A stretch of 64,000 nucleotides of DNA, taken from Cupriavidus pauculus (GTDB lineage: Bacteria; Pseudomonadota; Gammaproteobacteria; Burkholderiales; Burkholderiaceae). The translations under genes were made by a program, and so were the position numbers. Shown here piece by piece: positions 6,992-27,778 of the stretch; positions within the stretch are counted from its first letter, which is position 1, and each line of letters begins with the position of its first letter. The stretch is taken from NCBI RefSeq assembly GCF_022179805.1, contig NZ_BPUO01000004.1, forward strand, positions 372,001-436,000. The letters run 5' to 3'. The notes under the pieces were generated by a model. The model was not told the DNA's origin, made no database searches, and saw only the letters and a list, made by a program, of their open reading frames with translations.

Positions 6992-6996
6992 CAACC

Positions 6997-10364: not shown

Positions 10365-11039
10365 ATGAACAGCAGTGCCGCCATGTTGCGCCAACCCGAA
10401 CCCACCGACGATGGGGTCGTCCTCGTGGTCGATGACGACCATGACGTGCGGCAGGCCCTGGCGGGGCTGTTCCGCTCGGTCGGACTTGCCAGCGCGTCGT
10501 TTGCCTCGGGCGAGGAAATGCTGATGCACGTCATGCCGGACCGGCCCACCTGCATCGTGCTCGACGTACGGCTGCGTGGCGCCAGCGGACTCGACCTGCA
10601 AAGCCATCTCAACGACGCGGGGCGCAGTGCCTCCATCGTCTTCATCTCGGGCTACGGCGACGTGCCGATGACCGTGGCCGCCATGAAGGCCGGCGCGGTC
10701 AGCTTTATTCCCAAGCCATTCCGCGAGCAGGACCTGCTGGACGCCGTCAACGAGGCGCTGGAGCGCGACCGCGACCGGCGCCAGGCACGCTCGCAGACGC
10801 AACTGCTGCGCGAGCGCTTCGACGCCCTGACCGGCCGCGAGCAGGAAGTCATGCAGCGGCTGGTGCACGGCCTGATGAACAAGGAAGTGGCCGACCAGCT
10901 CGGTATCAGCCAGGCCACCGTGAAGATCTATCGCGGCCAGGCCATGCGCAAGATGCAGGCGCGCACCTTTGCCGAACTGATCCTGATGGCGCAGGCGCTG
11001 GGCCTGGTGATGAACGCCGCGGCCCAGGTCCCGATCTAG
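10365..11039 (+). CDS. FixJ/NarL-type two-component response regulator (first copy)
   Basis: This 224-aa regulator has an N-terminal receiver with the acidic pocket (VVDDD), the phospho-acceptor Asp67 in CIVLDVRL and the switch Lys117 (PKPF). The C-terminus is a LuxR-type helix-turn-helix ([20 protein letters not shown], then the recognition helix [15 protein letters not shown]). It is close in sequence to the regulator at 27119, including identical Asp and Lys numbering, so the two are paralogues. The stop overlaps the stop of the convergent poxB within a shared CTAG. The likely partner is the large histidine kinase nearby. Confidence 0.9.
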
Positions 11040-12766
11040 CGCAGCAAGTTCGTCTTCGCCAGTTCCACCAGTTCGTCGGCGCGGCCGTTCACCACGGCCT
11101 TGAGCGCCCACAGGCTGAACCCCTTGATCTGCTCGGCCTTCAGCGCGGGCGGCATGGCCAGTTCCTGCGTGTTGGTCACCACATCGAGCAGCGCCGGGCC
11201 GTCGTGCTCCAGCATCGATGCCACGGCATCGGGCAGCAGCAACGGGTCTTCCACGCGCTGGGCATGCACGCCCACGGCACGGGCCATGGCGGCGAAATCG
11301 GGATTCTGCAGCGATGTGCCCGCCTCCAGGAAGCCCGACGCCTTCATTTCCAGCGCCACAAAGCCCAGCACGCTGTTGTTGAAGATCACCACCTTGACCG
11401 GCAGCCGCTGCTGCACCAGCGTCAGGAAGTCACCCATCAGCATCGCAAAGCCGCCGTCGCCGGACAGGCTGATCACCTGCCGGCCCGGATACGCGGACTG
11501 GGCGCCGATGGCCTGCGGCAACGCATTGGCCATCGACCCGTGCGCCAGCGAGCCGATCAGCCGGCGTTGGCCGTTCATCTGCAGGTAGCGCGCGGCCCAG
11601 ATGGTGGGCGTGCCCACGTCGAACGTGAACACGGCATCCTCGGCAGCATGCTCGCTGATGAGCTTCGCCAGGTATTGCGGATGGATCGGGCGCCGCCCGC
11701 TGTCGCCGGTAGCCAGGTCGTCGAGTTGCCGGCGGGCGTCGCGGTAGTGCCGCACGCTGGCGTCCAGGTGCGTGCTGTCGGCCTGCGGCCGCAGGCGCGG
11801 CTGCAGCGCGTCGAGCGTCGCCGCCACATCGCCCACGAGCCCGAGGTCCAGCCGCGTGCGGCGTCCCAGGTTCTCGGGACGCACATCGACCTGCACCACG
11901 CGTGCGCCCTCCGGATAGAACTGGCGGTACGGAAAATCGGTGCCAAGCATGACCAGGGTGTCGCAGTTCTGCATCGCGTGATAGCCCGAGCTGAAGCCGA
12001 TCAGCCCTGTCATGCCGACGTCATACGGATTGTCGTACTCGATGTACTCCTTGCCGCCCAGCGCATGCACCACCGGCGCCTTGAGCGTTTCGGCCAGCCG
12101 CACCACCTGGTCATGCGCCCCGGCGCAGCCTCGGCCGCACAGCAGCGTGGTGCGCTGGCTGCCGGCCAGCAGGTCCGCCAGCGCATCGAGCGATGCGGCG
12201 TCGGGCACCACCACCGGCGCAGGCAGCATCATCGAGGCCGGTGCCGACAACGCGGCGGTGGCGGCCTTCAGTGCTACATCGCCCGGAATCACGATGACGG
12301 CCACGCCCCGGCGGCCCACGGCGGTGCGGATGGCGGTTTCCAGCACGCCGGGCAACTGCTCGACGCTGGTCACCAGCTCGCAGTAGTGGCTGCATTCGCG
12401 GAACAGCTGCTCGGGATGGGTTTCCTGGAAGTAGTTGCGTCCAATCTCGGCGCTCGGGATATGCGCGGCAATGGCCAGCACCGGTACACGCGACCGGTGG
12501 CAATCGAACAGCCCGTTGATCAGGTGCAGGTTGCCCGGCCCGCAACTGCCGGCACAAACGGCCAGCTCGCCGGTCAGATGCGCTTCCGCACCGGCTGCGA
12601 AGGCCGCCGTTTCCTCATGCCGCGTGTGGATCCAGTCGATGTCACCGCGCCTGCGCAGCGATTCGGTCAGCCCGTTCAGGCTGTCGCCCACCACGCCGTA
12701 GATACGGCGGACACCAACGCCATACAGCACCGAGGTGATCAGATCGGCTGCATTTTCCGTGGCCAT
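11036..12766 (-). CDS. poxB: Pyruvate dehydrogenase (quinone), PoxB
   Basis: This peripheral membrane flavoprotein uses thiamine diphosphate to decarboxylate pyruvate to acetate and CO2, passing electrons to ubiquinone. The 576-aa sequence follows E. coli PoxB end to end: the active-site glutamate in [15 protein letters not shown], the [20 protein letters not shown] stretch, the GDGG...NN ThDP motif, and a C-terminus ([12 protein letters not shown]) matching the lipid-activated tail. PoxB is known for stationary phase and stress. Its place between a FixJ-type regulator and a large sensor kinase suggests control by them. Confidence 0.95.
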
Positions 12767-12896
12767 GCTGTGCTCCTTGTCCGGAGGGATAGTTCAACCT
12801 AGCCTACGCGGGCGTGATGCGCCAGGGTTGTGTACCGGTGTGCGGGGTTGTGGATTTGCACAGTGGATCGTTCGTTGCCCTTTGCTTTCTTTGTTT

Positions 12897-12929
12897 GCTC
12901 CCCTCTCCCGCCTTGCGGGAGAGGGGAGC
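12897..12929. repeat. Intergenic palindromic repeat (perfect 15-bp arms)
   Basis: GCTCCCCTCTCCCGC and its exact complement are separated by CTT. It shares the core CTCTCCCGC-N3-GCGGGAGAG with copies near 22.75 and 22.8 kb, so it belongs to a REP-like family. It lies downstream of the histidine kinase gene and could cap its mRNA. Confidence 0.75.
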
Positions 12930-12952: not shown

Positions 12953-15900
12953 TCACCCCCGCAACGGAATCCCGAACCAGAACCGGCTACCGTGTGGCTC
13001 CAATGCGGCAGCCTGCAACTGCCCCTTGTGTGCCTCGATGATCGAGCGGCAGATGGCCAGGCCCATGCCCATGCCGTTGACCTTGGTGGTGTAGAACGGC
13101 TCGAACACCTGTTCAGCCAGCGCCTGGCCGATGCCGGTGCCGTTGTCGGTCACGCTCACTTCCAGGCACTGGCCGTCGACGATGCGGGTGGCGATATGCA
13201 GCACGCGCGGGCGGTCCAGGATCTCGGCCATCGCATCGATGGCGTTGACCACGAGGTTCAGGATCACCTGCTGCAACTGAATGTCGTCCCCGAACGCGGT
13301 GGGCGGGTCGGCATCGAGCGACAGCGTCAACGCAATCTGGCGGCGGTCCACTTCGTTGCGCGAGATGGCCAGGATATGGCGGATGGCCTGGTGGATGTCC
13401 ACGTTGGCCAGCACGGGTGCCGCGTTGCGCGTCAGCCCCTGCAGGCTGCGGATCATGTCGCCGGCGCGTTGTCCTTCGCTGCGGATGGCCTCCAGGCCCT
13501 CGCGCGCGTTGGCGATGTCCGGCGTGGCCCGCGCCAGCCAGCGCAGGCTGGCTCCCGCGTTCGAGACAATCGACATCAGTGGCTGGTTCACCTCATGCGC
13601 GATCGACGCGGTGAGCTGGCCCACCGTGGTAGCCCGGGCCACGCGGGCCAGGTCGGCCTGCGCGCTGCGTAGTGCGTCCTCGGACTGACGCCGCGCGGTG
13701 ATATCGGTGACGGTGCCCACGTAGTCCAGCGCGCCGTTGTCTCCGGGCAGTGGCTTGCCGATGGCGGCCACGTACCGGATCGATCCATCGGCACGGACGA
13801 TGCGATGCTCCACGCGAACCGTGGCCTGCCGCGCGACCTGCGTTTCGGTGACATGGCGCACCATCTCGCGGTCTTCGGGATGCATGCGCGAGAGAAACAC
13901 CTCGAATGGTGCTTCGCGCTGGTCGGGGCCGAGTTCGTAGATGCGGCGCAGTTCCTCGGAACCCGTGAAGCGGTCGCGCCGCAAATCCCAGCGCCAGCTA
14001 CCGGTGTGGCTGACGCTCTCGCCCATGGCCAGCGATGCCTCGCTGGCGCGCAACTCTCGTTCCACCTGCTGGCGGCGCTCGTTCTCGACGAGCAGGTCGT
14101 CGTAGAGCCGTGCCGTGCGCAGCGAGATGGCCGCTTGCGACGCGATCAGCTCCAGCACGCGCGTGCGATCCAGCGTGAAGGCGTCGTGGATCAGGCGGTT
14201 CTCCAGGTACAGCGCACCGATCACCTCGTTGAGGCGCAGCATCGGGATGCACAGCGCCGAGACATGTGGCGAGGCGAGCTGCCCGAAATAGGGATCGATC
14301 GCAAACGGATTGGCGCCCGTCGATGCATCCGCCATGGCCGCCTGCCCGGTGCGTACGGCGGTGTGGAACATGGCCAGCGGCAGCGCGCGGGCCGTGACCG
14401 GGTCCTGCGTCAGCCGCACCTGGATGCCGTCGGCCGCGGTGTCGGCGCAGGCTTCGATCAGCGGGCCCTCGGGACGGATACGGATCAGCAACCCGCGCTG
14501 CGCACCCGCATATTCAAGCGCGACGGTCATCAGCTTGTCGATCAGCCGGTCCAGCCGGATTTCTTCGCTCAACGCACGCGACGCCTTGATCACGCTCTCG
14601 GCATCGAGCGTCTGCGCGCTAGCGCCAAGGTGCCAGGTGCGCGGCGGCGATGCGGCATCGGCGATGTCCGGATGCGCGGCTTCCAGTTGCCGCGCCTTGG
14701 CCGTGGCACCCCAACGCAGATAAGCATCGCGCGCATGCCGCCGATGCGCGTTTGCGGCCGATGTCAGCCCCTGCGTGGCGCACAGCGCCGCAGCGCGCTC
14801 GTGGGCCATGGCGGCGATCTGCACGAAGCCGTGCGCCGAGGCATGACTGATGGCCTGCTCGTAGCGCGACATCGCACCCAGCACATCGCCTTCCAGCCGT
14901 GCCACTTCCGCCTCCACCAGCAAGGCCTTGTCGGTGAACGTGTGCGGGTTGGCCTCGGCCCAGCCGCGCAGGCGGCCGGCGTCGGCGCGCAGCGTTTGCC
15001 AGCCGGCGGCATCGGGCGAGCCCGGCTGAGCGGCGATGGACAGCGCGCGCAACAGGTGGAAGTCGAGCTGGTGGATATGAGCCGGCGCCGACCAGGCAAA
15101 CACGGCCGCGTGCTCCAGGCACTGCGCGGCTGTATCGAAACGGCCGGAGAGGAACAGCACAGTCGCCTGGTACACGGACTGCCAGAACTCGAACGTGCTG
15201 AGGCGTTCTTCCACCGCGCCCGTGGCTTCGCGTACCACCTCGGCCTCAGGCCAGGACAGCGTGCGCAGCCCGTCGACAAAGCGCTGCTGCAACAACAGGA
15301 TGGCCTCGACGTCGCCAAACCGGGCCGTGCGGACGAACTGCAGCCCCCGGGCGATTTCGGCCTCCACGTCGTCGAGTACGTCGCCGCGCACCAGCATCGC
15401 GGCCGCGATATGGCAGCACTCGTAGCAGGCGGTGGTCACGTCGCCATGCGTGACGCCAGCGGCAAAGCCGGCGCGTGCGCATTCGATGGAATAGGCCAGT
15501 GGCTGGGTCCAGACGCTGAGCTGATCCAGCGGCAGCAGCGTGCGCGCCTCGTGTTCGGCGTACCCGGCACGGGTGGCCAGCCGGTGCGCCAGCTCTCCGT
15601 AGCGGAAGCCATCGGCATACGCATCGTAGCGGTGGCACACCAGCACGCCGAGCCAGCCCAGCGAGGCCGCCGCCGCCGCGGTCATGCCGTGGCTCAGCGT
15701 CAGCCGGATCATCTGGCACAAGCCCGTGAAAGCCAGGTTCTCGTCGGTGAAGCTGGCCGGAATATGCAGCGCCGACAGCAGCCCCATGGCCGCCTCGGTG
15801 CGGGCATCGGCCACCTCGGGCAGGGCCAGCAGCGCATCGAGACTGGCGTGGTCGAGGTGCGGCCGGATCTCGGCGTAGAGCGTATCGCACAAGGAGTCGG

Positions 15901-18466
15901 ACGGATGCGGATGCAGGTCGATGCCAAAGCCCCGCAGCCCGTCGATGGCCTGCTCCACGGCCAGCGCATTCTCTGAGCGCCGCAGGTGGATCTCGATCTT
16001 GAGCCGGTACACGGCGGCCTGGCGCAGCGGCCCGGCTGGCTGTTCGAGCAGGTCGGTGGTCAGTGCCAGCGCGTCGTCCAGATGCCCCTGCAGGAACTGG
16101 CAGTGCGCCTGTTCCTCGCGCAGCGAGTAGGCCAGCCCGTCGGCAGCTGGCACCGGTACATCGGGAAGGCTGACGCGATGCAGCCCGCCTTCGACATAGC
16201 GCAGCGCGGCCCCATAGGCGGCGGCGCTGCGCGCCCGTCTTGCCGCGTCCAGGAGCAGCGTGGCCATCTGTCGGGCGTCGTCGATCGATGCCTGCTGCGC
16301 GGCGCCCTGCAGCAGCAGGTCGGCGGCGCGGAACAGCAGGTCGTCGCGGGCGTCGGGCCGTACCGACCGGGCCAGCAGGCGCCCGGCGCGCAGGCAGATC
16401 GACGCACGTTCGGCGGCATCGATCCCGGCTTGCGCGGCATCCTGGATGCGGTCATGCGCGAAGACGTAGTCGTGCTCCATCAGCATGATCAGGCCGGACG
16501 CGCGGGCCGGTGCCAGTTGCGCGTGCAGCGCGCGTTCGCTGATATCGAAAACTTCGCACAGCAGCGCGGTCGACGAACGGCTTCCCAGGCACGCCATGCC
16601 GCCCAGCCGCTCGAACGTGTCGGGCGGCAGCCGGTGCAGGCGTTGCAGGCTCAGCGCCGCCACGTTGTCGGTGTAGGCGCGTTGCTCGATGGCGGTGAGG
16701 TCGAACTGCCAGCTATCGCCATCGGCCGTGCCGGAGATCAGCCGTTCATCAGCCAGCGTCTGCAGGAACTGCCTGACGAAGAACGGGTTACCCAACGTCT
16801 TGAGGTGGACCCGGTGGGCGAGCGACCGCACGGCCGCCGCCGGCATGCGGAAGGCTTCCGCCAGCAGGCTGGCCACGGAATCCACTGTCAGGTTGTCCAC
16901 GGCGATCTGCTGGACGTGCGCGGACTGTCGAGGCGTTGCCAGCAGCGAGATGCCGGGCGTCGGAGCGCTGCAGACCAAAAGCCACGGTAACGGCGGCGAC
17001 ATGTCCGCCAGCCGCGCGAGCAATGCCTGCGAGGGCTGGTCGAGCCACTGGACGTCGTCCATCAGCAGCACGAAGGGCAGGTCCGGTTGCGCGAAGGCCT
17101 GGATCAGCCGGCGCAGTGCGATATCGACGTGGACGTCGGCGTCCGCGCCTTGCGATGCGGGCGCCGCCGGAAAGTCGTCGACCAGCAGGCGCAGCGCCGG
17201 GGCAACGCGCGCCGCCACGCGGCCGTAGTTGCCCAGCGCCTGCCCAAGGCGTACTTGCCATGTCCGAACGGCGTCGTCGGGCAGGGCCAGGATCCGATGC
17301 ACGAGGCCGCCGAATGCAGTGGCCAGCGCGGCGTACGGCACGTCTTGCTGGGAGCGGTCTGCCTTGCCGATGGCGGCATGTACGCCACGCGTCTGCAACG
17401 TCTGCACAAACGCTTGCAGCAGCGCGCTCTTGCCCACACCCGATGGCCCGGTCGCCACCACCACGGCAGGCTTGCCGGTGGCGGCCACGCTGGAGAGCGC
17501 ATCGTCCAGGCGCGCAAGTTCCGCATGGCGCGCGTAGAGGCGGTCGGGCAGTTCGAGCCCGGCGGACAGGTCGCGCTCGCCGGGCTCGAACGGTTCGATA
17601 CGGTGGTGCGCGCCCCACGCCTGCGCGCATCGCGCCAGATCGGCATGCAGGCCGGCGGCGGTCTGGTAGCGGCGCGACGGCGCCTTCTCCAGCAGCTTGA
17701 GCACGATGCGCGACAGCATCGGGGGTACGCCGGGCTCCAGCGCGTCGGGCGGCTGCGGCGTACCGGCGACGTGGCCGTGTATCCATTCGCCCATGTCGTC
17801 CGGGTTCCTGACGCCAAACGGCAACTGGCCGGTCAGCAACTGGTACAGCACCACGCCCAGCGAATAGAGGTCGCTGCGCGCATCGATCGTGCGCCCGGTG
17901 CGGCCCGTATGTTCGGGCGACATGTAGGCCGGCGCCTCGCCGGCCAGCATGGTCACGGCGGGCCGGCTGGCCGCCGGTTGCGAAGCGTGCGTGGCCATGC
18001 CGAAGCGGCCGATGCGGCATCGTCCCGTGTCATCGACGAAGAGACTGCAGGGCGTGATCGCGCGATGCAGCATGCCGCAGTCGTGCGCGGCTTTCAGCGC
18101 CGCAGTGGCGCCAAGTGCCACCGCCAGCGCACGCGTGACGCTGGGGCGCTGCGGCAGCAGCGCGGACACCGGCATGCCGTACAGGTCGTCGTAGACCGAT
18201 GCCACACCGTGGCGATAGCGGGTCAACGCACGCGGCACCAGCGCCCATTCGGCGCGCAGCAGGCCCCGCAATGCGTACTCGGTTTCAATGCGGCGCGCGG
18301 CGTCGGCTTCCACCTGGAGCGACGCGGCATGCGTCACCATGACGGTACTGCCTGTGCGGGGGTGCGTGCCGCGAGAGAACGCGACGATGCCGTCCTGCAG
18401 GCAGGGCTCGAAGTGGAAATCGTCGAGGGGAAAGGCGTTGGTCAGGCCGGTGGCGTCGGTCGTCAT
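12953..18466 (-). CDS. Giant hybrid sensor: pseudokinase, AAA-type ATPase, GAF, PAS, histidine kinase
   Basis: The 1837-aa protein begins with a Ser/Thr-kinase-like domain (about 11-285), then a signal-transducing ATPase (Walker A GPSGVGKS at 340-347, Walker B LLMDD at 467-471). A helical repeat region (about 690-1200), GAF (about 1303-1455), PAS (about 1475-1595), HisKA with His1624 (SIAHEVNQPL) and HATPase (Asn1741, DNGTGIG near 1774) follow. The kinase domain looks dead: the catalytic loop reads HRAITP (Ala136 for Asp) and the DFG position reads RFG (Arg154), while SPE and the DLYSLG helix remain. The histidine kinase looks active. A TTG at 18487 with GGAGG seven bases upstream is an alternative start. 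It is coded 24 bases after a lone receiver. Confidence 0.92.
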   Translation of the reverse strand: MTTDATGLTNAFPLDDFHFEPCLQDGIVAFSRGTHPRTGSTVMVTHAASLQVEADAARRIETEYALRGLLRAEWALVPRALTRYRHGVASVYDDLYGMPVSALLPQRPSVTRALAVALGATAALKAAHDCGMLHRAITPCSLFVDDTGRCRIGRFGMATHASQPAASRPAVTMLAGEAPAYMSPEHTGRTGRTIDARSDLYSLGVVLYQLLTGQLPFGVRNPDDMGEWIHGHVAGTPQPPDALEPGVPPMLSRIVLKLLEKAPSRRYQTAAGLHADLARCAQAWGAHHRIEPFEPGERDLSAGLELPDRLYARHAELARLDDALSSVAATGKPAVVVATGPSGVGKSALLQAFVQTLQTRGVHAAIGKADRSQQDVPYAALATAFGGLVHRILALPDDAVRTWQVRLGQALGNYGRVAARVAPALRLLVDDFPAAPASQGADADVHVDIALRRLIQAFAQPDLPFVLLMDDVQWLDQPSQALLARLADMSPPLPWLLVCSAPTPGISLLATPRQSAHVQQIAVDNLTVDSVASLLAEAFRMPAAAVRSLAHRVHLKTLGNPFFVRQFLQTLADERLISGTADGDSWQFDLTAIEQRAYTDNVAALSLQRLHRLPPDTFERLGGMACLGSRSSTALLCEVFDISERALHAQLAPARASGLIMLMEHDYVFAHDRIQDAAQAGIDAAERASICLRAGRLLARSVRPDARDDLLFRAADLLLQGAAQQASIDDARQMATLLLDAARRARSAAAYGAALRYVEGGLHRVSLPDVPVPAADGLAYSLREEQAHCQFLQGHLDDALALTTDLLEQPAGPLRQAAVYRLKIEIHLRRSENALAVEQAIDGLRGFGIDLHPHPSDSLCDTLYAEIRPHLDHASLDALLALPEVADARTEAAMGLLSALHIPASFTDENLAFTGLCQMIRLTLSHGMTAAAAASLGWLGVLVCHRYDAYADGFRYGELAHRLATRAGYAEHEARTLLPLDQLSVWTQPLAYSIECARAGFAAGVTHGDVTTACYECCHIAAAMLVRGDVLDDVEAEIARGLQFVRTARFGDVEAILLLQQRFVDGLRTLSWPEAEVVREATGAVEERLSTFEFWQSVYQATVLFLSGRFDTAAQCLEHAAVFAWSAPAHIHQLDFHLLRALSIAAQPGSPDAAGWQTLRADAGRLRGWAEANPHTFTDKALLVEAEVARLEGDVLGAMSRYEQAISHASAHGFVQIAAMAHERAAALCATQGLTSAANAHRRHARDAYLRWGATAKARQLEAAHPDIADAASPPRTWHLGASAQTLDAESVIKASRALSEEIRLDRLIDKLMTVALEYAGAQRGLLIRIRPEGPLIEACADTAADGIQVRLTQDPVTARALPLAMFHTAVRTGQAAMADASTGANPFAIDPYFGQLASPHVSALCIPMLRLNEVIGALYLENRLIHDAFTLDRTRVLELIASQAAISLRTARLYDDLLVENERRQQVERELRASEASLAMGESVSHTGSWRWDLRRDRFTGSEELRRIYELGPDQREAPFEVFLSRMHPEDREMVRHVTETQVARQATVRVEHRIVRADGSIRYVAAIGKPLPGDNGALDYVGTVTDITARRQSEDALRSAQADLARVARATTVGQLTASIAHEVNQPLMSIVSNAGASLRWLARATPDIANAREGLEAIRSEGQRAGDMIRSLQGLTRNAAPVLANVDIHQAIRHILAISRNEVDRRQIALTLSLDADPPTAFGDDIQLQQVILNLVVNAIDAMAEILDRPRVLHIATRIVDGQCLEVSVTDNGTGIGQALAEQVFEPFYTTKVNGMGMGLAICRSIIEAHKGQLQAAALEPHGSRFWFGIPLRG

Positions 18467-18490
18467 GGTGCGGCGTCCCGGGGGCAAGCG

Positions 18491-18871
18491 TCAGCCTCCG
18501 GGGCGCATCTGCAAAGCGTTTTCGATGCAGTCGATGATATCCGTATCCTGGAACGGCTTGTTCAGGAAACAGGCGGCGCCGGCATCGCGCGCGCGTTGTT
18601 CGTAGCCTTCCTGCGCAAAGGCCGTCATGAAGATCACCGGCATCCGGTGGCCGTTGGTGCGCAGCGCGTCGCACAGGGCAAAGCCGTTCATCCCGGGCAT
18701 CTGCACGTCGGTGATCACGCAATCGATGTCACCGATCGAGGGAGACTGCAGCAATTCGGGGCCGCCGCCGTAGAGTTCCACGGCCATGTCGAGCGAGCGC
18801 ACCAGTCGGCCCATGGCATGCCGGACGGAAACGTCGTCGTCGACAATGGCAATCACGGGGGTGGCAGTCAC
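18491..18871 (-). CDS. Stand-alone receiver (response regulator without output domain)
   Basis: This 126-aa CheY-like receiver has the acidic pocket in AIVDDD, phospho-acceptor Asp55 (CVITDVQMPGMNGF), Thr/Ser in FMTAFA and Lys105 in LNKPF. I chose the GTG at 18871 because AAGGA sits at the right distance, although the frame stays open to 18958. No DNA-binding domain follows, so it likely acts as a phosphate shuttle or sink for the histidine kinase coded immediately downstream on the same strand. The last codons hold the GGAGG that could serve the downstream TTG start. Confidence 0.88.
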   Translation of the reverse strand: MTATPVIAIVDDDVSVRHAMGRLVRSLDMAVELYGGGPELLQSPSIGDIDCVITDVQMPGMNGFALCDALRTNGHRMPVIFMTAFAQEGYEQRARDAGAACFLNKPFQDTDIIDCIENALQMRPGG

Positions 18872-19021
18872 ACGAGTTCCTTGAATAGTCGAAAGCGGCG
18901 GCATACCTGCCACCGCTTTGCCCAAAGCATAATCTCGCTGGCCACCGGTCGACATCATACGGTGGTATTGTCAGCGCGCCGCCGACATGCGCCGCTGACG
19001 TGACCACCGTGGCCCGCGCGT

Positions 19022-19074
19022 AAACCGACAAGGATATTCGGTTTCCGATACGCTCCGCCACCAATCGGAGCGTA
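19022..19074. promoter_or_regulatory. Two adjacent perfect inverted repeats upstream of the receiver gene
   Basis: AAACCGA (19022-19028) pairs with TCGGTTT (19038-19044), and TACGCTCCG (19049-19057) pairs with CGGAGCGTA (19066-19074). They lie between the end of a porin gene and the start of the receiver/kinase transcript, so they may be a terminator, an operator, or both. Confidence 0.45.
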
Positions 19075-19117
19075 CCCATACCAAGGTATTAGTGACGCTC
19101 CGAGCGTGGCATCGGCG

Positions 19118-20224: not shown

Positions 20225-20486
20225 CGGTCTTCCCGTCGTCGCGCGCCGCCAGCGTCGGCCCCGGCGTGCCCGTGATCTTGGGCACGCACTCCGAATGGAA
20301 CCAGGCCACCGTCACCGGCTCACCTGCGATCATGCGCTTGATGGGCGGCACCACCTGTTCGCCGATCAGCATGCCAAGCAGGCCGATCAGCGCCACGGCC
20401 GGCGGCGCGGGAGAGCGCACCTGCATCAGTGCATAGATGATGCCGACCAGCACGCCGGCGCCCAGGGATACGAGATAGATCTTCAT
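20211..20486 (-). CDS. XapX domain membrane protein (DUF1427)
   Basis: This 91-aa protein has two hydrophobic helices (YLVSLGAGVLVGIIYALM and VALIGLLGMLIGEQVVP) and the XapX hallmark SPAPPAVALIGLLG between them. A hydrophilic C-terminal tail of about 35 residues follows. The family is found in small operons of proteobacteria and has no proven function. It lies 21 bases after the MFS gene and overlaps the porin start by 14 bases, so it is part of a four-gene operon. Confidence 0.88.
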   Translation of the reverse strand: MKIYLVSLGAGVLVGIIYALMQVRSPAPPAVALIGLLGMLIGEQVVPPIKRMIAGEPVTVAWFHSECVPKITGTPGPTLAARDDGKTDATQ

Positions 20487-20507
20487 GATGACTTCTCAAC
20501 AGTAACT

Positions 20508-22133
20508 TCAGACAGGTGACGATGCCGGGGGCGTGGCCGGCAGGCCCACGCCAAGCAGGTGCCGCACGCGCGGCGGCTCGCTGGCCACGTGGTAGCGCGC
20601 CACGTCGCGCTGCAGGTCGGCATCGGCATTGGGTACGCGGCGATGCTGGCGCAGGTGTTCGGCCCACGACTCCACCAGGAACCACTCGGTCAGCAGTTCG
20701 GGGTTGGCCGGGTCCTCCATGACGCCCCAGTTGAAGGCGCCGTCGCGCAGGCGCTCTTCCTTCAGGCCGTGCACGGCGCGCAGGAATGCGTCGCGGCTTG
20801 CCGCCGGAATGCAGTACTCGATCAGGATCATGACCGGGCCGCGATCGTGGGCGATCTCGTCGGCCATTTCCGGCTCGGGCCAGTGGCGTGCCGGGCCCAG
20901 GTCCTCCTCGCCGCGCGGCAGTCGTACGCGGTGCAGCAGCAGCGCGGCCACCACCAGGCCGACGGCGGCGATCAGCAGCGCATGGGGCGTGCCCATGGCC
21001 TGGGCCACGAAGCCCCACAGCAGGCTGCCACCCGCCAGCGCGCCGTTGAACACCATCTGGTAGACGGCCAGCGCGCGGCCACGTACCCAGTTGGGCAGGA
21101 TGGCCTGCGCCGCGCCGCCCAGCGTGGTCAGCGCCATGATCCAGGCCGCGCCAAGCACGAGCAGCAGCGGCAACGCCAGCCAGACCGGCGGTGCGAACGA
21201 CAGGCCGGCCATGACGGCGGCGGTGGCGATGGCGGACACCAGCACCACGCCGTCGCCGTCGAGCCGCCTCTGCAATGCGGGCATCGTCAGCGCACCCATG
21301 ATGGCGCCTGCACCAACCGCGCCCAGCAGCACGCCATAGAGACCGGCGCCGCCGTGCAGCAGTTGCTTGGCGACCAGCGGCAACAAGGCCCACACGCTGC
21401 TGCCGAACGCGAAGTGCACGGCCGCGCGCAACAGCACCACATGGAGCTTGCTGTGGGCGCGTGTGAAGCGCAGCCCGGCACGGAAGGCGCTGAAGAAATG
21501 CTCGCGCAGCGGATCGGCGGGCTGCGCGGGACGCTTCCACCAGATCAGCGCGGCAATCACGAACAGATAACTCAGCAGGTCGGCGCCATAGGTGGCGGCG
21601 GCACCGAATGCGGCCAGCAGCAGGCCGCCCGTGGCCGGGCCGATGGCGCGGGCGATATTGACGCCCAGTGCGTTGAGCGCCACGGCCTGGCGCAGCGTGC
21701 TGGGGGGCACCAGCTCCGGCACGATCGACTGCCACGTCGGCCCCATCATCGCGGCGCCGATACCGCCGGCAAACGCCAGCGCAATCAGGATCTCGATCGT
21801 CAGGCCGTTATGCCAGGACAGGAACGCCAGCGTGCCGCTGACCGCTGCCAGAGCGATCTGGATCACGATCAGGAAGCGGCGCCGATCCAGGATGTCGGAC
21901 AGCACGCCGGCCGGAATGGCCAGCAGGAAGACCGGCAGCGTGGCCGCGGCCTGGATGGTGGCCACGGCGGCGGGCGACGACGACAGGTCGGTGGCCAGCC
22001 ACGCGCTGGCCACGTCGCGCATGAAGCTGCCGACGTTGCCGAGAATGGTGGCCGCCCAGAGGACGGCGAAGGTCGTTTGCGCCAGTGGCGCGAACGAGCC
22101 GACGGACTTGGGTTGCGATGCAGCCTGCGTCAT
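20508..22133 (-). CDS. MFS exporter (EntS-like) with a C-terminal ABM-like domain
   Basis: This 541-aa protein has about 400 residues of MFS_3 transporter with 12 predicted helices. They start at FAVLWAATILGNVGSFM and include DILDRRRFLI as the loop 2-3 motif. From about residue 420 a soluble domain follows (MILIEYCIPAASRDAFLRAV, then FNWGVMEDP and EWFLVESWAEH), which resembles dimeric alpha/beta-barrel monooxygenases. The start overlaps the DoxX stop by four bases. Substrate is unknown. The fused domain suggests it binds or modifies the exported small molecule. Confidence 0.85.
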   Translation of the reverse strand: MTQAASQPKSVGSFAPLAQTTFAVLWAATILGNVGSFMRDVASAWLATDLSSSPAAVATIQAAATLPVFLLAIPAGVLSDILDRRRFLIVIQIALAAVSGTLAFLSWHNGLTIEILIALAFAGGIGAAMMGPTWQSIVPELVPPSTLRQAVALNALGVNIARAIGPATGGLLLAAFGAAATYGADLLSYLFVIAALIWWKRPAQPADPLREHFFSAFRAGLRFTRAHSKLHVVLLRAAVHFAFGSSVWALLPLVAKQLLHGGAGLYGVLLGAVGAGAIMGALTMPALQRRLDGDGVVLVSAIATAAVMAGLSFAPPVWLALPLLLVLGAAWIMALTTLGGAAQAILPNWVRGRALAVYQMVFNGALAGGSLLWGFVAQAMGTPHALLIAAVGLVVAALLLHRVRLPRGEEDLGPARHWPEPEMADEIAHDRGPVMILIEYCIPAASRDAFLRAVHGLKEERLRDGAFNWGVMEDPANPELLTEWFLVESWAEHLRQHRRVPNADADLQRDVARYHVASEPPRVRHLLGVGLPATPPASSPV

Positions 22134-22558
22134 GCCCGGCTCCGCAGGTCATGCCATGCCACCAGCACGAAGCCGCCGACCAGGCCCAGATGTTCGAAGA
22201 ACGCGTTCATCAGCATGAACTGCGCTTCGGGCGGCGCACTCCAGAAACGGTTGGCCATGAACGTGGCCGCCAGCGTGAACACGGCCAGCGCCAGCGCGCC
22301 AAGCCAGCGGAACACACCCAGCAGGATCATGGCCGGCGCGGCCAGTTCCAGTGCAATGGTGGCGGCGGCAAGCGGCACGGCCGGTGCCAGGCCAAAGTGC
22401 TGCATCTCGGCGACCGCGCCGGAGAAATCGAACAGCTTGACGAGCCCGCCTTGCAGGTACGCCGCGCAAAGCAGCAGCAGGGCGATCCAGTGCAGCCAGC
22501 GGGGCAGCCGGTGCGCGGGGGCGCCGGAAGCGGCCATTGGGGAAAAGGATGATTGCAT
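22130..22558 (-). CDS. DoxX family membrane protein
   Basis: This 142-aa inner-membrane protein has four hydrophobic helices and the DoxX pattern (AAYLQGGLVKLFDFSGAVAE near residue 33, then ELAAPAMILLGV and MNAFFEHLGLVGGFV). I chose the ATG at 22558, since the frame upstream runs through intergenic palindromes. It is first in an operon with the MFS exporter, XapX protein and porin. DoxX proteins are linked to redox, thiosulfate or quinone chemistry in other organisms, but nothing here defines the substrate. Confidence 0.88.
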   Translation of the reverse strand: MQSSFSPMAASGAPAHRLPRWLHWIALLLLCAAYLQGGLVKLFDFSGAVAEMQHFGLAPAVPLAAATIALELAAPAMILLGVFRWLGALALAVFTLAATFMANRFWSAPPEAQFMLMNAFFEHLGLVGGFVLVAWHDLRSRA

Positions 22559-22593
22559 GGTGGGAGCTCCAGGGGCGAAGATGGGTGCAGCGA

Positions 22594-22635
22594 AACAGGG
22601 TGATGCGAACAGGGTGATGCGAACAGGGTGATGCG
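22594..22635. repeat. Three tandem copies of a 14-bp unit
   Basis: AACAGGGTGATGCG occurs three times head to tail without mismatches (22594-22607, 22608-22621, 22622-22635). It lies upstream of the DoxX operon start, where copy-number change could alter promoter spacing. Confidence 0.85.
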
Positions 22636-22654
22636 CGGTTGTTCGGTTTTTGCT

Positions 22655-22681
22655 CCCCTCTCCCACGCAGTGGGAGAAGGG
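22655..22681. repeat. Intergenic palindromic repeat, imperfect copy
   Basis: CCCCTCTCCCA faces TGGGAGAAGGG with one mismatch around a short loop. It is followed by GGGGGTGAGGG, which is mirrored by CCCTCACCCCC ahead of the next copy at 22754, so the two copies are inverted relative to each other. Confidence 0.65.
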
Positions 22682-22753
22682 CTGGGGGTGAGGGCCGGGC
22701 GCGTCAAATTGCTGACTGGTTGGCAAGCAGAACCTCGATGCCCTCACCCCCAA

Positions 22754-22780
22754 CCCCTCTCCCGCCGTGCGGGAGAGGGG
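22754..22780. repeat. Intergenic palindromic repeat, perfect 12-bp arms
   Basis: CCCCTCTCCCGC and GCGGGAGAGGGG are separated by CGT. It has the same core as the repeats at 12897 and 22796. Confidence 0.75.
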
Positions 22781-22795
22781 AGCACATATGGTGGG

Positions 22796-22814
22796 TCTCC
22801 CGCCATGCGGGAGA
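22796..22814. repeat. Intergenic palindromic repeat, short copy
   Basis: TCTCCCGC and GCGGGAGA surround CAT. It lies a few bases beyond the end of the amidohydrolase gene and could act as its transcript end. Confidence 0.7.
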
Positions 22815-22826
22815 GGGGAGAAACAA

Positions 22827-24770
22827 TCAGAACGCCCAGCAAGAACAGCCCAGCGCGCCCCAGAACGTGCTTTCGTCCGACGTCGGTGCGCTCGTGGTCC
22901 ACGCCTTGGCATGCGCGTGGCCGTGCACGCCGCATGAGCTGGCGCAGCCGCAGGCGGTGTTCATCGCCAGCTTGGCCTGCGCGGTCGGGCGCGGCTGGTA
23001 CTTGCTGCCGTGGCGAGCGGGCGACCAGTCGGGCATGGCCGGCGGAATGTTGGGCGAGTGCTTGCCGAATTCGCTATCGCCGTAGACCACCTTGCCGCCC
23101 AGCACCGTCATCACCGACGTGATGTCCTGGATGTCGTCGCCCGGCACGCTGAAGTAGTCGGCCGACAGCACGGCCAGGTCGGCGAGTTGGCCGCTCTTGA
23201 TCTGGCCCTTCTTGCCTTCTTCCGACGAGAACCACGTATTGGCTTCGGTCCACAGGCGCAGCGCCGTTTCGCGATCCAGCAGGTTGGCTTGCGGATACAT
23301 CGACATGCCGCCCACGGTCTTGCCCGTGGTCAGCCAGTACAGCGACACCCACGGGTTGTACGATGCCACGCGCGTGGCATCGGTACCGGCGCCCACCTTC
23401 ACGCCCTTTTCCAGCATCTTCTTGACCGGCGGCGTCGCCTCGGCGGCGCGTGCACCGTAGCGCTCCACGAAGTACTCGCCCTGGTAGGCCATGCGGTGCT
23501 GCACGGCGATGCCGCCGCCCAGTGCCGCGATGCGGTCGATATTGCGGTCGGAAATCGTCTCCGCGTGGTCGAAGAACCAGTTCAGGCCGTTGAACGGCAC
23601 GTCCTTGGCCACCTTCTCGTAGACGTCCAGCGCACGCGTGATGGTTTCGTCGTAGGTGGCATGCAGGCGCCACGGCCAGCGCTTCTCGGCCAGCAGGCGG
23701 ATTACCGGTTCGAGATCGGCTTCCATCGATGGCGGCATGTCGGGACGCTCCACGCGGAAGTCCTCGAAGTCGGCGGCCGTGTACACCAGCATCTCGCCGG
23801 CGCCGTTGTGGCGGTACAGGTCATCGCCCTGGCCCGGCTTGACGGTCGACGTCCAGGTCTTGAAGTCGCTCAGTTCTTCCTTGGGCTTCTGCGTGAACAG
23901 GTTGTAGGCCAGGCGCACCGTGAGCTGGCCGTCGCGGTGCAGTTCCTCGATGATGTTGTAGTCCTCGGGGTAGTTCTGGTATCCGCCGCCGGCATCGATC
24001 ACGCCGGTTACGCCCAGGCGGTTCACTTCGCGCATGAAATGGCGCGTGGAATTCTTCTGGTATTCCGGCGGCAGCTTCGGACCCTTGGCCAGCGTGGCAT
24101 ACAGGATCGTCGCGTTGGGCTTGGCCAGCAGCAGGCCGGTGGGGTTACCCGCCTTGTCGCGGATGATCTCGCCGCCCGGCGGGTTTGGCGTGTCCTTGTT
24201 GTAGCCCACAGCGCGCAGCGCGGCGCCGTTCAGGATGGCACGGTCGTACAGGTGCAGGATGAACACGGGCGTGTCGGGTGCCGCCGCGTTCAGTTCCTCG
24301 ATGGTCGGCAGGCGCTTTTCCACGAACTGGTGTTCGGTGAAGCCACCCACCACGCGCACCCATTGCGGGGCGGGCGTACGGGCAACCTGGTCCTTGAGCA
24401 TGCGCATGGCGTCGGCCAGCGACCGCACGCCGTCCCAGCGCAGCTCCATGTTGTAGTTCAGGCCGCCACGAATGATGTGCATGTGGCTGTCGATCAGCCC
24501 TGGAATGGCCCGCCGGCCATTCAGGTCGATCACCCTGGTACCGGCTGCCGCGAGCTTCATGATCTCGTCGCGCGTACCCACGCCGATGAAACGGCCGTCC
24601 TGGATGGCAACGGCATCAGCCTGGGGGTTGGACTTGTCTAGGGTGGTGAACTTGCCGTTGACAAGGATGAGATCGGGAGTCGGGGTCGGTGACATGGCGA
24701 AAAGCTCCGAAGAAGCTGCCGCCCCAAGGGCGGCAGCCGAGGCGATGAATTGCCGGCGGGTTACTGACAT
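22827..24770 (-). CDS. Exported YtcJ-type metal-dependent amidohydrolase
   Basis: This 647-aa protein starts with a Tat-like leader (TRRQFIASAAALGAAAS) and has the amidohydrolase metal motif GLIDSHMH (His96, His98). Later it has the family's HATYDET, HAE and GAGTDAT motifs. YtcJ proteins hydrolyse amide or carbamate bonds, and the substrate here is unknown. The last 44 residues form an unusual tail with Cys607, Cys609, Cys613, His616, His618, His620, Cys642 and Cys644, which could bind metal. I set the start at 24770 (MSVTRRQF) because the longer frame lacks a leader. It follows the chloroperoxidase-like gene by 20 bases. Confidence 0.9.
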   Translation of the reverse strand: MSVTRRQFIASAAALGAAASSELFAMSPTPTPDLILVNGKFTTLDKSNPQADAVAIQDGRFIGVGTRDEIMKLAAAGTRVIDLNGRRAIPGLIDSHMHIIRGGLNYNMELRWDGVRSLADAMRMLKDQVARTPAPQWVRVVGGFTEHQFVEKRLPTIEELNAAAPDTPVFILHLYDRAILNGAALRAVGYNKDTPNPPGGEIIRDKAGNPTGLLLAKPNATILYATLAKGPKLPPEYQKNSTRHFMREVNRLGVTGVIDAGGGYQNYPEDYNIIEELHRDGQLTVRLAYNLFTQKPKEELSDFKTWTSTVKPGQGDDLYRHNGAGEMLVYTAADFEDFRVERPDMPPSMEADLEPVIRLLAEKRWPWRLHATYDETITRALDVYEKVAKDVPFNGLNWFFDHAETISDRNIDRIAALGGGIAVQHRMAYQGEYFVERYGARAAEATPPVKKMLEKGVKVGAGTDATRVASYNPWVSLYWLTTGKTVGGMSMYPQANLLDRETALRLWTEANTWFSSEEGKKGQIKSGQLADLAVLSADYFSVPGDDIQDITSVMTVLGGKVVYGDSEFGKHSPNIPPAMPDWSPARHGSKYQPRPTAQAKLAMNTACGCASSCGVHGHAHAKAWTTSAPTSDESTFWGALGCSCWAF

Positions 24771-24790
24771 GGGGTCTGTTCGCTCGGGCT

Positions 24791-25789
24791 TCAGGCGTTC
24801 AGGAAGGCCAGCAGGTCGGCGTTGACCTGGTCGGCGTTGATCACGCACATGCCGTGCGAGGCGCCCGGGTACACCTTCAGCGTGGCGTTCTTGACGATCT
24901 TGGCGGTCAGCTTGCCGGCGTTGTCGATCGGCACGATCTGGTCGTCTTCACCATGCAGCACCAGCGTGGGCACGTCGAACTTCTTCAAGTCGGCCGTGTA
25001 GTCCACTTCCGAGAATTCCTTGATGCACAGGTACTGGCCCAGGATGCCGCCGGTCATGCCCTGCGCCCAGAACGCGTCGATGGTGCCTTGCGAAACCTTG
25101 GCGTTCGGACGGTTGAAGCCGAAGAACGGCACGGCCAGGTCCTTGTAGAACTGCGAGCGGTTCTCGGCAACGCCCTTGCGGATGTTGTCGAACACTTCGA
25201 GCGGCAGGCCGTTCGGGTAGGCGGCGCTCTTGGCCATGGTCGGCGGCACCGCGCCGATCAGCACGGCCTTGGCCACGCGCTTCGTGCCATGACGGCCGAT
25301 GTAGCGCGCCACTTCGCCGCCGCCGGTGGAGTGGCCCACCAGCGTGGCGCCCTTGATGTCCAGTGCGTCGAGCACGGCGGCCAGGTCGTCGGCGTAGGTG
25401 TCCATGTTGTTGCCCTGCGCCGGCTGGTCCGAGCGGCCATGGCCACGGCGGTCATGGGCGATCACGCGGAAGCCCTTCTGCACCAGGAACAGCATCTGGG
25501 CGTCCCAGGCGTCGGCGTCGAGCGGCCAGCCGTGCGAGAACACCACCGGACGGCCCGAACCCCAGTCCTTGTAGAAGATGCGCGTGCCGTCCTTGGTCGT
25601 CACGAAGCTGCCGCCTTGCTTGTTCTGGCGGCCGGCAGCCTGCGCGGCTTCGGCGACGCCCGGCGTCAGCGCGGCCATCGATGCCACCGACGCGGCTGCC
25701 GCGCCGACGGTGCTGCCAACCAGCAGCTTGCGGCGCGAGGCGTCGGGTTGGTTGGCTTGTTCGGCTTGTTGGGGGGCGAGGTTCGACAT
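24791..25789 (-). CDS. Tat-exported alpha/beta hydrolase, non-haem chloroperoxidase/arylesterase type
   Basis: This 332-aa enzyme has a twin-arginine leader ([17 protein letters not shown], residues 18-34, with cleavage near AEAAQA). The catalytic triad is visible: Ser154 in GHSTGG, Asp283 in GEDDQIVP and His312 in GASHGM, and HGWP (86-89) forms the oxyanion region. The sequence is typical of cofactor-free chloroperoxidases, which act in vivo as esterases or perhydrolases. It is the first gene of a pair with the YtcJ-like amidohydrolase. The ATG at 25789 follows an AAGGTAG-like ribosome site. Confidence 0.9.
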
Positions 25790-25838
25790 GATTTCTACCT
25801 TCCTGCAAAAAGTTGATTCGGTTTTTTTGATTGATGTA

Positions 25839-25868
25839 AACGGTGGTGTCTGGCTCGTTGCCACCGTT
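25839..25868. promoter_or_regulatory. Inverted repeat upstream of the chloroperoxidase-like gene
   Basis: AACGGTGG (25839-25846) and CCACCGTT (25861-25868) are exact complements 14 bases apart. They lie 50 bases from the start codon, so this is a candidate operator. Confidence 0.4.
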
Positions 25869-25907
25869 CTATGCTGCGGGTGCTGCGATGGGGTGAACTT
25901 TAGCGGC

Positions 25908-25937
25908 CAGCATGAGCCCATTGCCGCACTCATGCTG
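25908..25937 (-). terminator. Hairpin after the YcaC-like gene
   Basis: CAGCATGAG and CTCATGCTG form a perfect 9-bp stem with a 12-base loop, 40 bases downstream of the YcaC-like stop. No T-run follows on the minus strand, so it may be a weak terminator or a regulatory dyad. Confidence 0.4.
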
Positions 25938-25976
25938 TACATTTTGTTCAAAAAATTAGAATGATGTCTGGATGGC

Positions 25977-26663
25977 TCAGCGAGCGGGCACCGGAGCGAT
26001 CGAATCGTGCGCCGTGGTGGTGCGCTGCGCGGCCTTGTGGACCATCGTGTAGGCGTAGTCGACACCCATGCCGTAGGCACCCGAGTGTTCCTTGACCAGC
26101 TTCATCACGGCGTCGTAGGTGTCGCGGTGGGCCCAGTCGCGCTGCCATTCCAGCAACACCTGCTGCCAGGTCACGGGCACCACGCCGGCCTGCACCATGC
26201 GCTGCATGGCGTAGTCGTGGGCTTCCTTGCTGGTGCCGCCCGAGGCGTCGGCCACCATGTAGATCTCGTAGTCGCCTTCCAGCATCGCGCACAGCGCGAA
26301 CGTGGTGTTGCAGACCTCGGTCCACAGGCCGGCCACTACCACCTTCTTGCGGCCGTTGGCCTTCAGCGCGTCACGTACCTTCTGGTCGTCCCACGAGTTC
26401 ATCGAGGTACGTTCCAGCGTCTTGGCGTCCGGGAAGACATCGAGGATCTCCGGGTACGTGTAGCCCGAGAACGACTCGCTTTCCACGGTGGTGATGGTGG
26501 TCGGCACATTGAAGATCTTCGCGGCCTTGGCCAGGCCGACGACGTTGTTCTTCAGCGCCTGGCGGTCCATCGACTGCACGCCAAAGGCCATCTGGGGCTG
26601 GTGATCGATGATGATCAGCTGGCTGTTCTGCGGCGTCAGCACTTCGAGCTTCGGGTTGGACAT
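25977..26663 (-). CDS. YcaC-like isochorismatase-superfamily hydrolase
   Basis: This 228-aa cysteine hydrolase has the catalytic Asp20 in [14 protein letters not shown] and the nucleophile Cys118 in [10 protein letters not shown], as in YcaC, whose natural substrate is unsettled. Pro-X cis-peptide and ADASGGTS motifs agree with the family. It has no export signal, unlike its hydrolase neighbours. The long 5' gap (to 27118) contains the second ATAC-N7-GTAT dyad. It could act downstream of the exported hydrolases on small amide products, though that is inference. Confidence 0.9.
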
Positions 26664-27118
26664 GGTGTGGCTCCTTGAAACGAAGAGTTGGGCGAAGCAC
26701 GGGGGGCAGCCGCGGCGGCTGGCGTGTCCCGCACCGATTGCATCGCGCCGCCATGGCAAGGCATGGGCGATGCAACCCGACGCAAGACTAGACGGGGCTT
26801 GCGAATGGAGCCATCGAACCATCGTATTAGCGCATCCGTGTTTCGGATGACTGGCGGCGCCACGGAATCGGCGCCTGACCGGGCGCAGGGGCCAACGGTG
26901 CGGGGCGGCAGGGGCAAACGGGAGGCGTATCCCGGTGTACACAGACGGCGGCGCCATACGCTCTTGGTATGGGTTCGGCATTCCGCGCTGGCTGGCGGTG
27001 GGCGGCGGGGTGCTTGTCCACTCAGCCGATGGTATGGGTGGCGCAGCGTCCGCCGCTGTGCTGAAATGCGGGGCGGCGCCATTGACCGGCGCCAACACCC
27101 TATTGGAGAACCAAAGCC
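26664..27118. other. 455-bp gene-free divergent promoter region
   Basis: The segment separates the YcaC-like gene from the second FixJ-type regulator gene. I see no plausible gene. It contains the dyad at 26956-26971 and a further GGTATGGGT near 27030, so it is likely a regulatory region for both genes. Confidence 0.5.
26956..26971. promoter_or_regulatory. Dyad ATAC-N7-GTAT, copy 2
   Basis: ATACGCTCTTGGTATG is an inverted repeat with the same spacing as the copy at 9779-9794 and matches it at 13 of 16 bases. It lies 148 bases before the FixJ-type gene and 293 before the YcaC-like gene. Confidence 0.45.
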
Positions 27119-27778
27119 GTGACTTCCCAGAGCGGGGACCTTGCCGATACCGGCGTGGCCGACGAATCGATGGTACTGATCGTCGACGACGACGCCATGC
27201 TGCGTGCCGGCCTTGGCAACCTGTTCCGTTCAGTGGGAATGCCGGTGGCGCTGTTCGGGTCGGCGGCCGAGCTGCTGGAGTTCAAGCTGCCGGACGTACC
27301 TAGCTGCCTGGTGCTCGACGTACGGCTGCGCGGGCCCAGCGGGCTGGACCTGCAGACCCGGCTGGGCCAGATGGGGGTGCATATCCCGATCATCTTCATG
27401 ACCGGCTACGGCGACATTGCGATGACGGTCACGGCCATGAAGGCTGGCGCCGAGGATTTCATGGCCAAGCCGTTCCGCGACCAGGACCTGCTGGATGCGG
27501 TGTCGGCGGCCATCGAGAAAGACCGGCTGCGCCGGCGGGGGTTGCGCCGCGTGGACGAGATCCGTGCCCACTACGCCACGCTGACGCCGCGCGAGGCCGA
27601 AGTCATGGGCATGGCCGTGTCGGGATTGCTCAACAAGCAGATTGCCGGCGAGATCGGCATCAGCGAGGTCACGGTGAAGATCCATCGTGGCCAGGCCATG
27701 CGCAAGATGCACGCGCGCACATTTGCCGACCTGGTGCTGATGGCCCAGCAGATCGGCCTCTGTCGCGCCGAGCAGTAA
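27119..27778 (+). CDS. FixJ/NarL-type two-component response regulator (second copy)
   Basis: This 219-aa regulator has a GTG start with GGAGAA upstream. The receiver has LIVDDD, phospho-acceptor Asp67 ([16 protein letters not shown]) and Lys117 (AKPF). The LuxR-type output domain follows (LTPREAEVMGMAVSGLLNKQ, recognition helix [15 protein letters not shown]). Its DNA-contact helix is nearly the same as in the paralogue at 10365, so both may bind the same sites. No kinase is coded beside it; the giant sensor 9 kb away is the best candidate partner. Confidence 0.9.
   Translation: MTSQSGDLADTGVADESMVLIVDDDAMLRAGLGNLFRSVGMPVALFGSAAELLEFKLPDVPSCLVLDVRLRGPSGLDLQTRLGQMGVHIPIIFMTGYGDIAMTVTAMKAGAEDFMAKPFRDQDLLDAVSAAIEKDRLRRRGLRRVDEIRAHYATLTPREAEVMGMAVSGLLNKQIAGEIGISEVTVKIHRGQAMRKMHARTFADLVLMAQQIGLCRAEQ

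Follow-up and report, generated by a model that had tools for sequence, protein, structure and literature searches.

In a stretch of 64,000 nucleotides from the Cupriavidus pauculus genome (6.8 Mb in all; the stretch is hereafter called the window), genes for transport, hydrolysis and signal transduction face the gene of a FixJ-type response regulator, FixJ2. These genes are kept together in other Cupriavidus genomes, and an 11-base word, TTGGTATRGGT, occurs upstream of both FixJ2 and the genes for a lone receiver protein and a giant sensor kinase. We consider it somewhat probable that these genes form a two-component system that regulates itself and that transports and hydrolyses some small compound in response to it. 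A first-pass annotation of the window had described a 17-kb locus bracketed by two paralogous FixJ-type regulators and had suggested one coordinated response that includes the pyruvate dehydrogenase PoxB. All genes that it named were found at their positions; the core is smaller than the 17 kb claimed, and consists of FixJ2 facing the genes for a YcaC-like hydrolase, an alpha/beta hydrolase (abhB), an amidohydrolase (Amid3), DoxX, an MFS transporter, XapX, a porin, the lone receiver and the giant kinase. From left to right the gene order is FixJ1 (+), PoxB (-), giant kinase (-), lone receiver (-), then porin, XapX, MFS_3, DoxX, Amid3, abhB and YcaC-like (all -), and FixJ2 (+). The features are, with the core first:

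27119..27778, + strand: FixJ2, response regulator with receiver and GerE domains, probable cognate regulator of the operon
26954..26974, + strand: putative regulator site CCATAC-N7-GTATGG with TTGGTATGGGT inside, upstream of FixJ2
27029..27039, + strand: second copy of the word (one mismatch), upstream of FixJ2
26810..26830, - strand: conserved element CTAATACGA-N6-RATGGC from the FixJ2-YcaC intergenic alignment, facing the YcaC gene
25977..26663, - strand: YcaC-like cysteine hydrolase of isochorismatase fold; the frame stays open as far as 27098, with the likely start (MSNPKLE) at 26663
24791..26080, - strand: abhB, alpha/beta hydrolase of chloroperoxidase/arylesterase type with a twin-arginine (Tat) leader
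22827..24848, - strand: Amid3, Amidohydro_3 protein with a Tat leader and a Cys/His-rich C-terminal tail
22130..22912, - strand: membrane protein of the DoxX family, whose true start is probably internal to these coordinates
20508..22133, - strand: MFS_3 transporter
20211..20486, - strand: XapX/DUF1427 small protein
19118..20224, - strand: Gram-negative porin
19074..19084, - strand: TTGGTATGGGT, exact copy, upstream of the receiver-kinase genes
18491..18958, - strand: lone receiver domain protein
12953..18487, - strand: giant sensor histidine kinase with degenerate protein kinase, AAA_16, GAF, PAS, HisKA and HATPase domains; a TPR-like match lies below its Pfam cut-off
11036..12766, - strand: PoxB, ubiquinone-dependent pyruvate dehydrogenase, judged a neighbour outside the core
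10365..11039, + strand: FixJ1, second FixJ-type regulator, clade-specific

Conservation of the gene set

The first-pass annotation had proposed a gene-neighbourhood comparison, and this revealed a conserved co-occurrence of FixJ2 and the enzyme operon in the genus. Among 60 Cupriavidus genomes, Amid3 was found in 55 and FixJ2 in 45, and all 45 have both. The best FixJ2 match lies within 15 kb of the amidohydrolase gene in 42 of these 45 genomes, mostly at about 2 kb (43 of 45 if any FixJ2 copy counts). Two of the exceptions (G171 and G187) have their best FixJ2 beside a kinase, a receiver and another MFS_3 gene, the former with a second FixJ2 copy 1.2 kb from its amidohydrolase; in the third (G196), FixJ2 is close to the end of its contig and is adjoined by the start of a YcaC-like gene. 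A kinase of the giant-kinase family was near FixJ2 in 33 of the 45 genomes, a count that omitted eight weaker kinase matches, of which two (G168 and G173) also qualify.

Nine loci (L001-L009) were retrieved through kinase matches. In all nine, amidohydrolase, YcaC, DoxX, porin and receiver genes lie within 10 kb; the alpha/beta hydrolase and XapX were found in seven, MFS_3 in six, FixJ2 (at least 80%) in five, and PoxB and FixJ1 (at least 83%) in four. The set also stays in one place where the region is rearranged: the kinase is on the opposite flank in L001 and L004, G154, G175 and G176 have an additional kinase, receiver and FixJ gene interleaved with the set, and G156 an additional kinase and FixJ gene. 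In C. metallidurans CH34 the kinase and FixJ2 genes come first, followed by those for YcaC, alpha/beta hydrolase, amidohydrolase, DoxX, MFS_3, XapX, receiver and FixJ1, with no porin match seen in that stretch. Partial or split extra amidohydrolase matches occur in three genus genomes (G177:C2, G201:C4 and G190:C4). Separately, L008 carries molybdenum hydroxylase subunits, a cytochrome c and a flavin adenine dinucleotide (FAD) monooxygenase at 17735-22987, and open reading frames (ORFs) resembling this molybdenum block were seen in L007, L004, L177 and G153; in relatives the block sits between PoxB or the kinase and FixJ1, or beyond the kinase, and it was not found in the window locus.

Outside the genus, the amidohydrolase was detected in 12 of the 369 genomes of a class search (E 1e-120; own genome included) and, at E 1e-100, in 377 plasmid records out of 72,556. 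The largest shares of these records come from Rhizobium (102), Sinorhizobium (83) and Pantoea (52), and 136 of the 377 are typed conjugative. Rhizobia and plant associates account for many of the records, though not for all. We compared 31 outside loci, 20 from plasmid records chosen across genera and 11 from the class search. Counted within 7 kb of the amidohydrolase, which gives lower bounds because of short contigs, the 7-kb limit and BLAST thresholds, the YcaC-like gene was present in at least 26, XapX in at least 17, the alpha/beta hydrolase in at least 16, MFS_3 in at least 15 and DoxX in at least 14 loci; an annotated DoxX gene in Paraburkholderia is not counted in this tally. PoxB and the porin type of the window were found within this distance in none of the 31. 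The regulators near outside loci are mostly of other kinds, among them LysR and AraC proteins, a winged-helix protein with AAA_16 and a propeller histidine kinase. On one Pantoea agglomerans and one Erwinia plasmid, however, a hydrolase, two XapX/DUF1427 genes, a receiver, a giant kinase with the same domain order and a receiver-GerE regulator lie beside the amidohydrolase and MFS genes. A Streptomyces plasmid carries the amidohydrolase, DoxX and alpha/beta hydrolase genes. Kept together across the genus even where rearranged, and in part outside it, the gene set appears to be more than a chance assembly.

Two side observations concern outside records. In a Paraburkholderia locus (L175, 5208-7982), a winged-helix regulator with AAA_16/NB-ARC-like and weak TPR matches lies beside the enzyme set and is another ATPase-type candidate sensor. 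The Escherichia albertii plasmid CP043257.1 holds a partial amidohydrolase match (52% of the query at 74% identity).

A promoter word upstream of FixJ2 and the receiver-kinase genes

The word was first recognised in the alignment of the FixJ2-YcaC intergenic region, and once in the window it lies within the dyad CCATAC-N7-GTATGG. At up to one mismatch, the window contains three matches where 0.26 are expected, a number reached in none of 100 shuffles; two lie upstream of FixJ2, one exact copy lies upstream of the receiver-kinase genes, and there are none elsewhere in the window. When the related loci were compared, the word was present upstream of FixJ2 in 13 of 19 (permuted words: mean 0.2, maximum 10, with 13 reached by 0 of 200) and upstream of the receiver in 6 of 24, one receiver gene being counted twice (6 reached by 1 of 200 permuted words). 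It also occurs upstream of YcaC in 4 of 20 and of MFS_3 in 3 of 17 loci, and was absent upstream of FixJ1 (0/8), PoxB (0/6), Amid3 (0/18), porin (0/14), abhA (0/5) and Hsp70 (0/3). Exact matches in the whole window genome number six, two being the locus sites and four lying inside long ORFs. Six other genomes hold 30 exact matches, of which ten are upstream of FixJ2 or the receiver and one is in the molybdenum block; the remaining 19 were displayed with their overlapping ORFs. This distribution of the word is the strongest indication that the core is under common control, and that PoxB and FixJ1 are not among the targets.

We dismissed copies of the word within genes, such as those in the molybdenum hydroxylase block of L008 and L177, as coincidences of coding sequence. 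The dyad CCATAC-N7-GTATRGG at three mismatches gave 14 matches against 12.6 expected, which is chance level, and only the 11-base word was retained. Promoter and terminator scans yielded no more than in shuffled sequences.

The sensor, the regulators and the enzymes

The giant kinase contains, in order, the Pfam domains Pkinase, AAA_16, GAF, PAS_3, HisKA and HATPase_c; the N-terminal protein-kinase-like and AAA_16 domains had gone unmentioned in the first-pass annotation, whose His1624 is correct if numbering begins at the Met that is residue 8 of the TTG frame; in that frame the His is residue 1631. The H, N and G1 boxes of a histidine kinase are present, and the Walker A and B motifs of an AAA/STAND-type ATPase look intact. 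A working serine/threonine kinase in this sensor is doubtful, because the DFG Asp is lost in all 18 aligned sequences (RFG in the window) and the HRD Asp, kept in nine of the 18 (HKD, HGD, HLD), is lost in the window's lineage (HRA), which leaves the window kinase with neither Asp of that class; in the stretch taken for VAIK, an uncertain assignment, no Lys was seen. The same domain order (protein-kinase-like, AAA, GAF, HisKA, HATPase) is found in dual protein kinase-histidine kinases with an AAA domain, among them HstK of cyanobacteria and fungal CHK1; the CHK1 TPR match of the window's kinase lies just below its cut-off. Compared with this type, the kinase described here has a degenerate protein kinase part, an extra PAS domain and no receiver. 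A kinase of the same kind, a receiver-only match and a FixJ-type match adjoin in one Bradyrhizobium and one Pseudomonas.

Both regulators consist of a receiver and a GerE domain and have the phosphoacceptor Asp and conserved Lys of FixJ-type proteins (Asp67 and Lys117 in both, as first annotated). They are identical at 118 of 219 positions overall and at 40 of 63 in the helix-turn-helix (HTH) part. Their "nearly equal output helix" was thus somewhat strongly worded, as a paralogue on contig C2 of the same genome is closer to FixJ2 (122/204; HTH 47/63) than FixJ1 is. In a tree of 43 sequences the clades of FixJ1 and FixJ2 are sisters, though support is modest (87/78), whereas pairwise identity favours the other paralogue as the nearest relative of FixJ2. 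Because 34 GerE matches occur in the window genome, and six of its FixJ-type genes, FixJ1 included, are 54-60% identical to FixJ2, paralogy of the two genes alone is ordinary. With FixJ/StyR-type regulators they have the domain layout, Asp and Lys in common, and the closest solved chain to FixJ2 is 1yio, which we take to be StyR. They differ from the FixJ/FixL system in that they score below the 255-bit cut-off of the FixJ equivalog NF006900 (180.6 and 174.1 bits) and in that the partner kinase is unlike FixL in its N-terminal domains.

FixJ1 (at least 73% identity) was found in only 9 of the 60 genus genomes. It lies within 17.3 kb of Amid3 in eight of these, with the ninth copy on another contig; the bracket of FixJ1 and FixJ2 is therefore conserved as a feature of one clade. 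To the left of FixJ1 (window 5618-9413) are an aromatic-acid MFS gene, a porin gene and another Tat alpha/beta hydrolase gene, the last of which remains close to FixJ1 in L006, L007, L009 and L138. On the other side, a YegD-like Hsp70 gene adjoins FixJ2 (28378-29796, - strand) and is also close to it in L006-L009, L137 and L177.

The predicted catalytic residues of all three hydrolases are conserved: Asp, Arg and Cys of the YcaC-like protein are invariant in 29 aligned sequences, and the Ser, Asp and His triad of abhB in 19. The HxH motif, two further His and an Asp of Amid3 (H72, H74, H346, H378 and D440, in trimmed query numbering), predicted metal ligands of an amidohydrolase, are invariant in 33. 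The YcaC-like protein shares the isochorismatase fold and the aligned Asp and Cys with YcaC of E. coli, its nearest relative of the two, and of P. aeruginosa, but at 140.3 bits falls below the YcaC equivalog cut-off of 310 (NF041461). abhB matches the non-haem chloroperoxidase F/arylesterase structure 1a8s at 400 bits and differs in its Tat leader. Amid3 is a full-length Pfam match to Amidohydro_3, and three solved structures, all uncharacterised, match it at E 1e-10. What sets it apart is the Cys/His-rich tail (window 22830-23015, - strand), whose last residues are C-x-C-[WF]-x-x in 34 of 37 relatives. No tail of this type was seen at nine paralogue loci in the genome, some of them with uncertain frames; the tail has no Pfam match, and its sole PDB match is at E 0.57. 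A structure predicted for Amid3 from eight close sequences was useless (mean predicted local distance difference test score 35), and one scan of viral contigs gave no relative of Amid3. Tat leaders are seen in the window on Amid3 and abhB, where the first-pass annotation had "two Tat-exported hydrolases"; extracytoplasmic hydrolysis appears not to be general, however, because the leaders come and go among relatives. They are missing from CH34 and from several further sequences, in a comparison where the placement of some N-termini is uncertain.

Proposed response, rival readings and significance

From the observed gene content, conservation, promoter word and conserved catalytic residues we infer the phosphotransfer, DNA binding and chemistry of the following model. 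A signal would act on the giant kinase through its degenerate kinase lobe, AAA_16 ATPase, GAF and PAS domains. The kinase would then pass phosphate to FixJ2, probably its cognate partner judging from adjacency, while the lone receiver would compete as an acceptor or serve as a phosphate sink. Once phosphorylated, FixJ2 would bind TTGGTATRGGT-type sites and raise expression of itself, of the receiver-kinase genes and of the operon that faces it, and FixJ1 may read the same sites as a second regulator. Porin and MFS transporter, perhaps with DoxX and XapX, would move the small compound across the envelope, and abhB, the YcaC-like hydrolase and the amidohydrolase would cleave ester, amide or lactone bonds in it.

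As a candidate unit, the regulatory core is well supported by comparison: coordination of FixJ2, the enzyme operon and the receiver-kinase genes is supported because these genes travel together and have the word in common. Several observations weigh against this autoregulated response. The two FixJ2-side sites are not independent, as they were used in finding the word, which leaves the receiver site as the independent one. The six words upstream of the receiver all come from the window and its closest relatives, and at one mismatch the word is missing from 6 of 19 FixJ2 and 18 of 24 receiver upstream regions. The loci are of common ancestry, so that permuted words understate chance, and a reversed control word also finds matches: 3 in the own genome, where the word itself has 6, and 12 in the six others, where it has 30. 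Finally, the giant kinase is near in 2 of the 31 outside loci, so that its pairing with the enzymes is not obligatory, and the kinase adjoining FixJ2 in many genus genomes is a different family member, 34-38% identical.

It is possible, if doubtful, that the locus is instead a general redox or electrophile stress module whose hydrolases detoxify reactive aromatic or quinone-like compounds, perhaps plant-derived. Neighbours in other genomes include genes for pirin, an antibiotic biosynthesis monooxygenase, glyoxalase/VOC proteins, KatG, Dps, YceI and flavin-dependent or flavin reductase enzymes. In a study on PaYcaC, the nucleophilic Cys of this protein reacts with electrophiles and a stress or nutrient role is suggested by the authors (PMC4519933); a domain survey gives DUF1427 (XapX) as of unknown function and limited to plant-associated Proteobacteria among the genomes sequenced by 2005 (PMC554113). 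The stress-type neighbours, however, vary between genomes and were tallied without a background, and the core is without an oxidoreductase. Nor is the set any longer limited to plant associates, as sewage, lake and Streptomyces records hold parts of it; a plant-derived substrate is a lead only.

We regard as unlikely a catabolic cluster for an N-heteroaromatic or similar, nicotinate-like ring, with oxidation, ring opening, and deformylation and amide hydrolysis by the alpha/beta hydrolase and the isochorismatase-fold enzyme. The enzyme classes of nicotinate degradation do resemble those of the locus, and the molybdenum block adjoins the locus in L008, with similar-looking ORFs in L007, L004 and G153. 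The hallmarks of nic clusters are a molybdenum nicotinate hydroxylase and a ring-opening dioxygenase, but neither is among the genes scanned in the window locus, where the core has no ring-cleavage enzyme and the molybdenum block is found only in some relatives. The alpha/beta hydrolase, moreover, is of the chloroperoxidase/arylesterase type.

Quite improbable is the reading closest to the first-pass annotation, in which the 17 kb form one unit, with both FixJ proteins, PoxB, the kinase and the operon answering one signal and PoxB giving respiratory electrons. PoxB itself is identified as such (1010.8 bits against a cut-off of 792 for NF006591) and sits between the kinase and FixJ1 in the window, L006-L009 and G202, while FixJ1 keeps near Amid3 and its clade is sister to that of FixJ2. 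These six are, however, the only ones with PoxB among the 22 genus genomes from which stretches, differing in extent, were retrieved; it is missing from those of CH34 and G153 and from all outside loci. Neither PoxB nor FixJ1 has the promoter word, and in L007-L009 a 5.5-kb block parts the two genes. We accordingly rejected PoxB as a core member; of the coordinated response first proposed, the part concerning FixJ2, the enzyme operon and the receiver-kinase genes stands, the receiver word being confined to the six closest genomes, and the respiratory part is not supported. That the genes are mere neighbours in a slowly rearranging region, sharing their order by recent common descent, is already disfavoured and very improbable: the genus loci are for the most part close relatives, but rearrangement in G151/G204 (L004/L001), G154, G175, G176 and G156 has not broken up the set, and other families, orders and classes have parts of it at about 35-90% identity.

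The locus consists of ordinary parts in an unusual, well-conserved combination, and among the open-access papers listed by our searches we recognised none that describes this gene set. Tentatively, the autoregulated response may be one version of a widespread, undescribed hydrolysis-and-transport pathway on interchangeable regulators, marked by an amidohydrolase whose Cys/His-rich tail would bind metal or a thiol-reactive ligand; in Cupriavidus and Erwiniaceae it would be read out by a sensor that joins a degenerate kinase, an ATPase and a histidine kinase and that acts both on a lone receiver and on FixJ-type regulators. YcaC-like hydrolases and XapX/DUF1427 are without a settled role in the sources consulted (PMC4519933, PMC554113). 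Both are found repeatedly beside one and the same set of amidohydrolase, alpha/beta hydrolase, DoxX and MFS genes, across alpha-, beta- and gammaproteobacteria and in part in Streptomyces, and frequently on plasmids. This recurrence provides a handle on all these families at once, and the candidate operator with its probable cognate regulator would make the inducer findable with a reporter screen.

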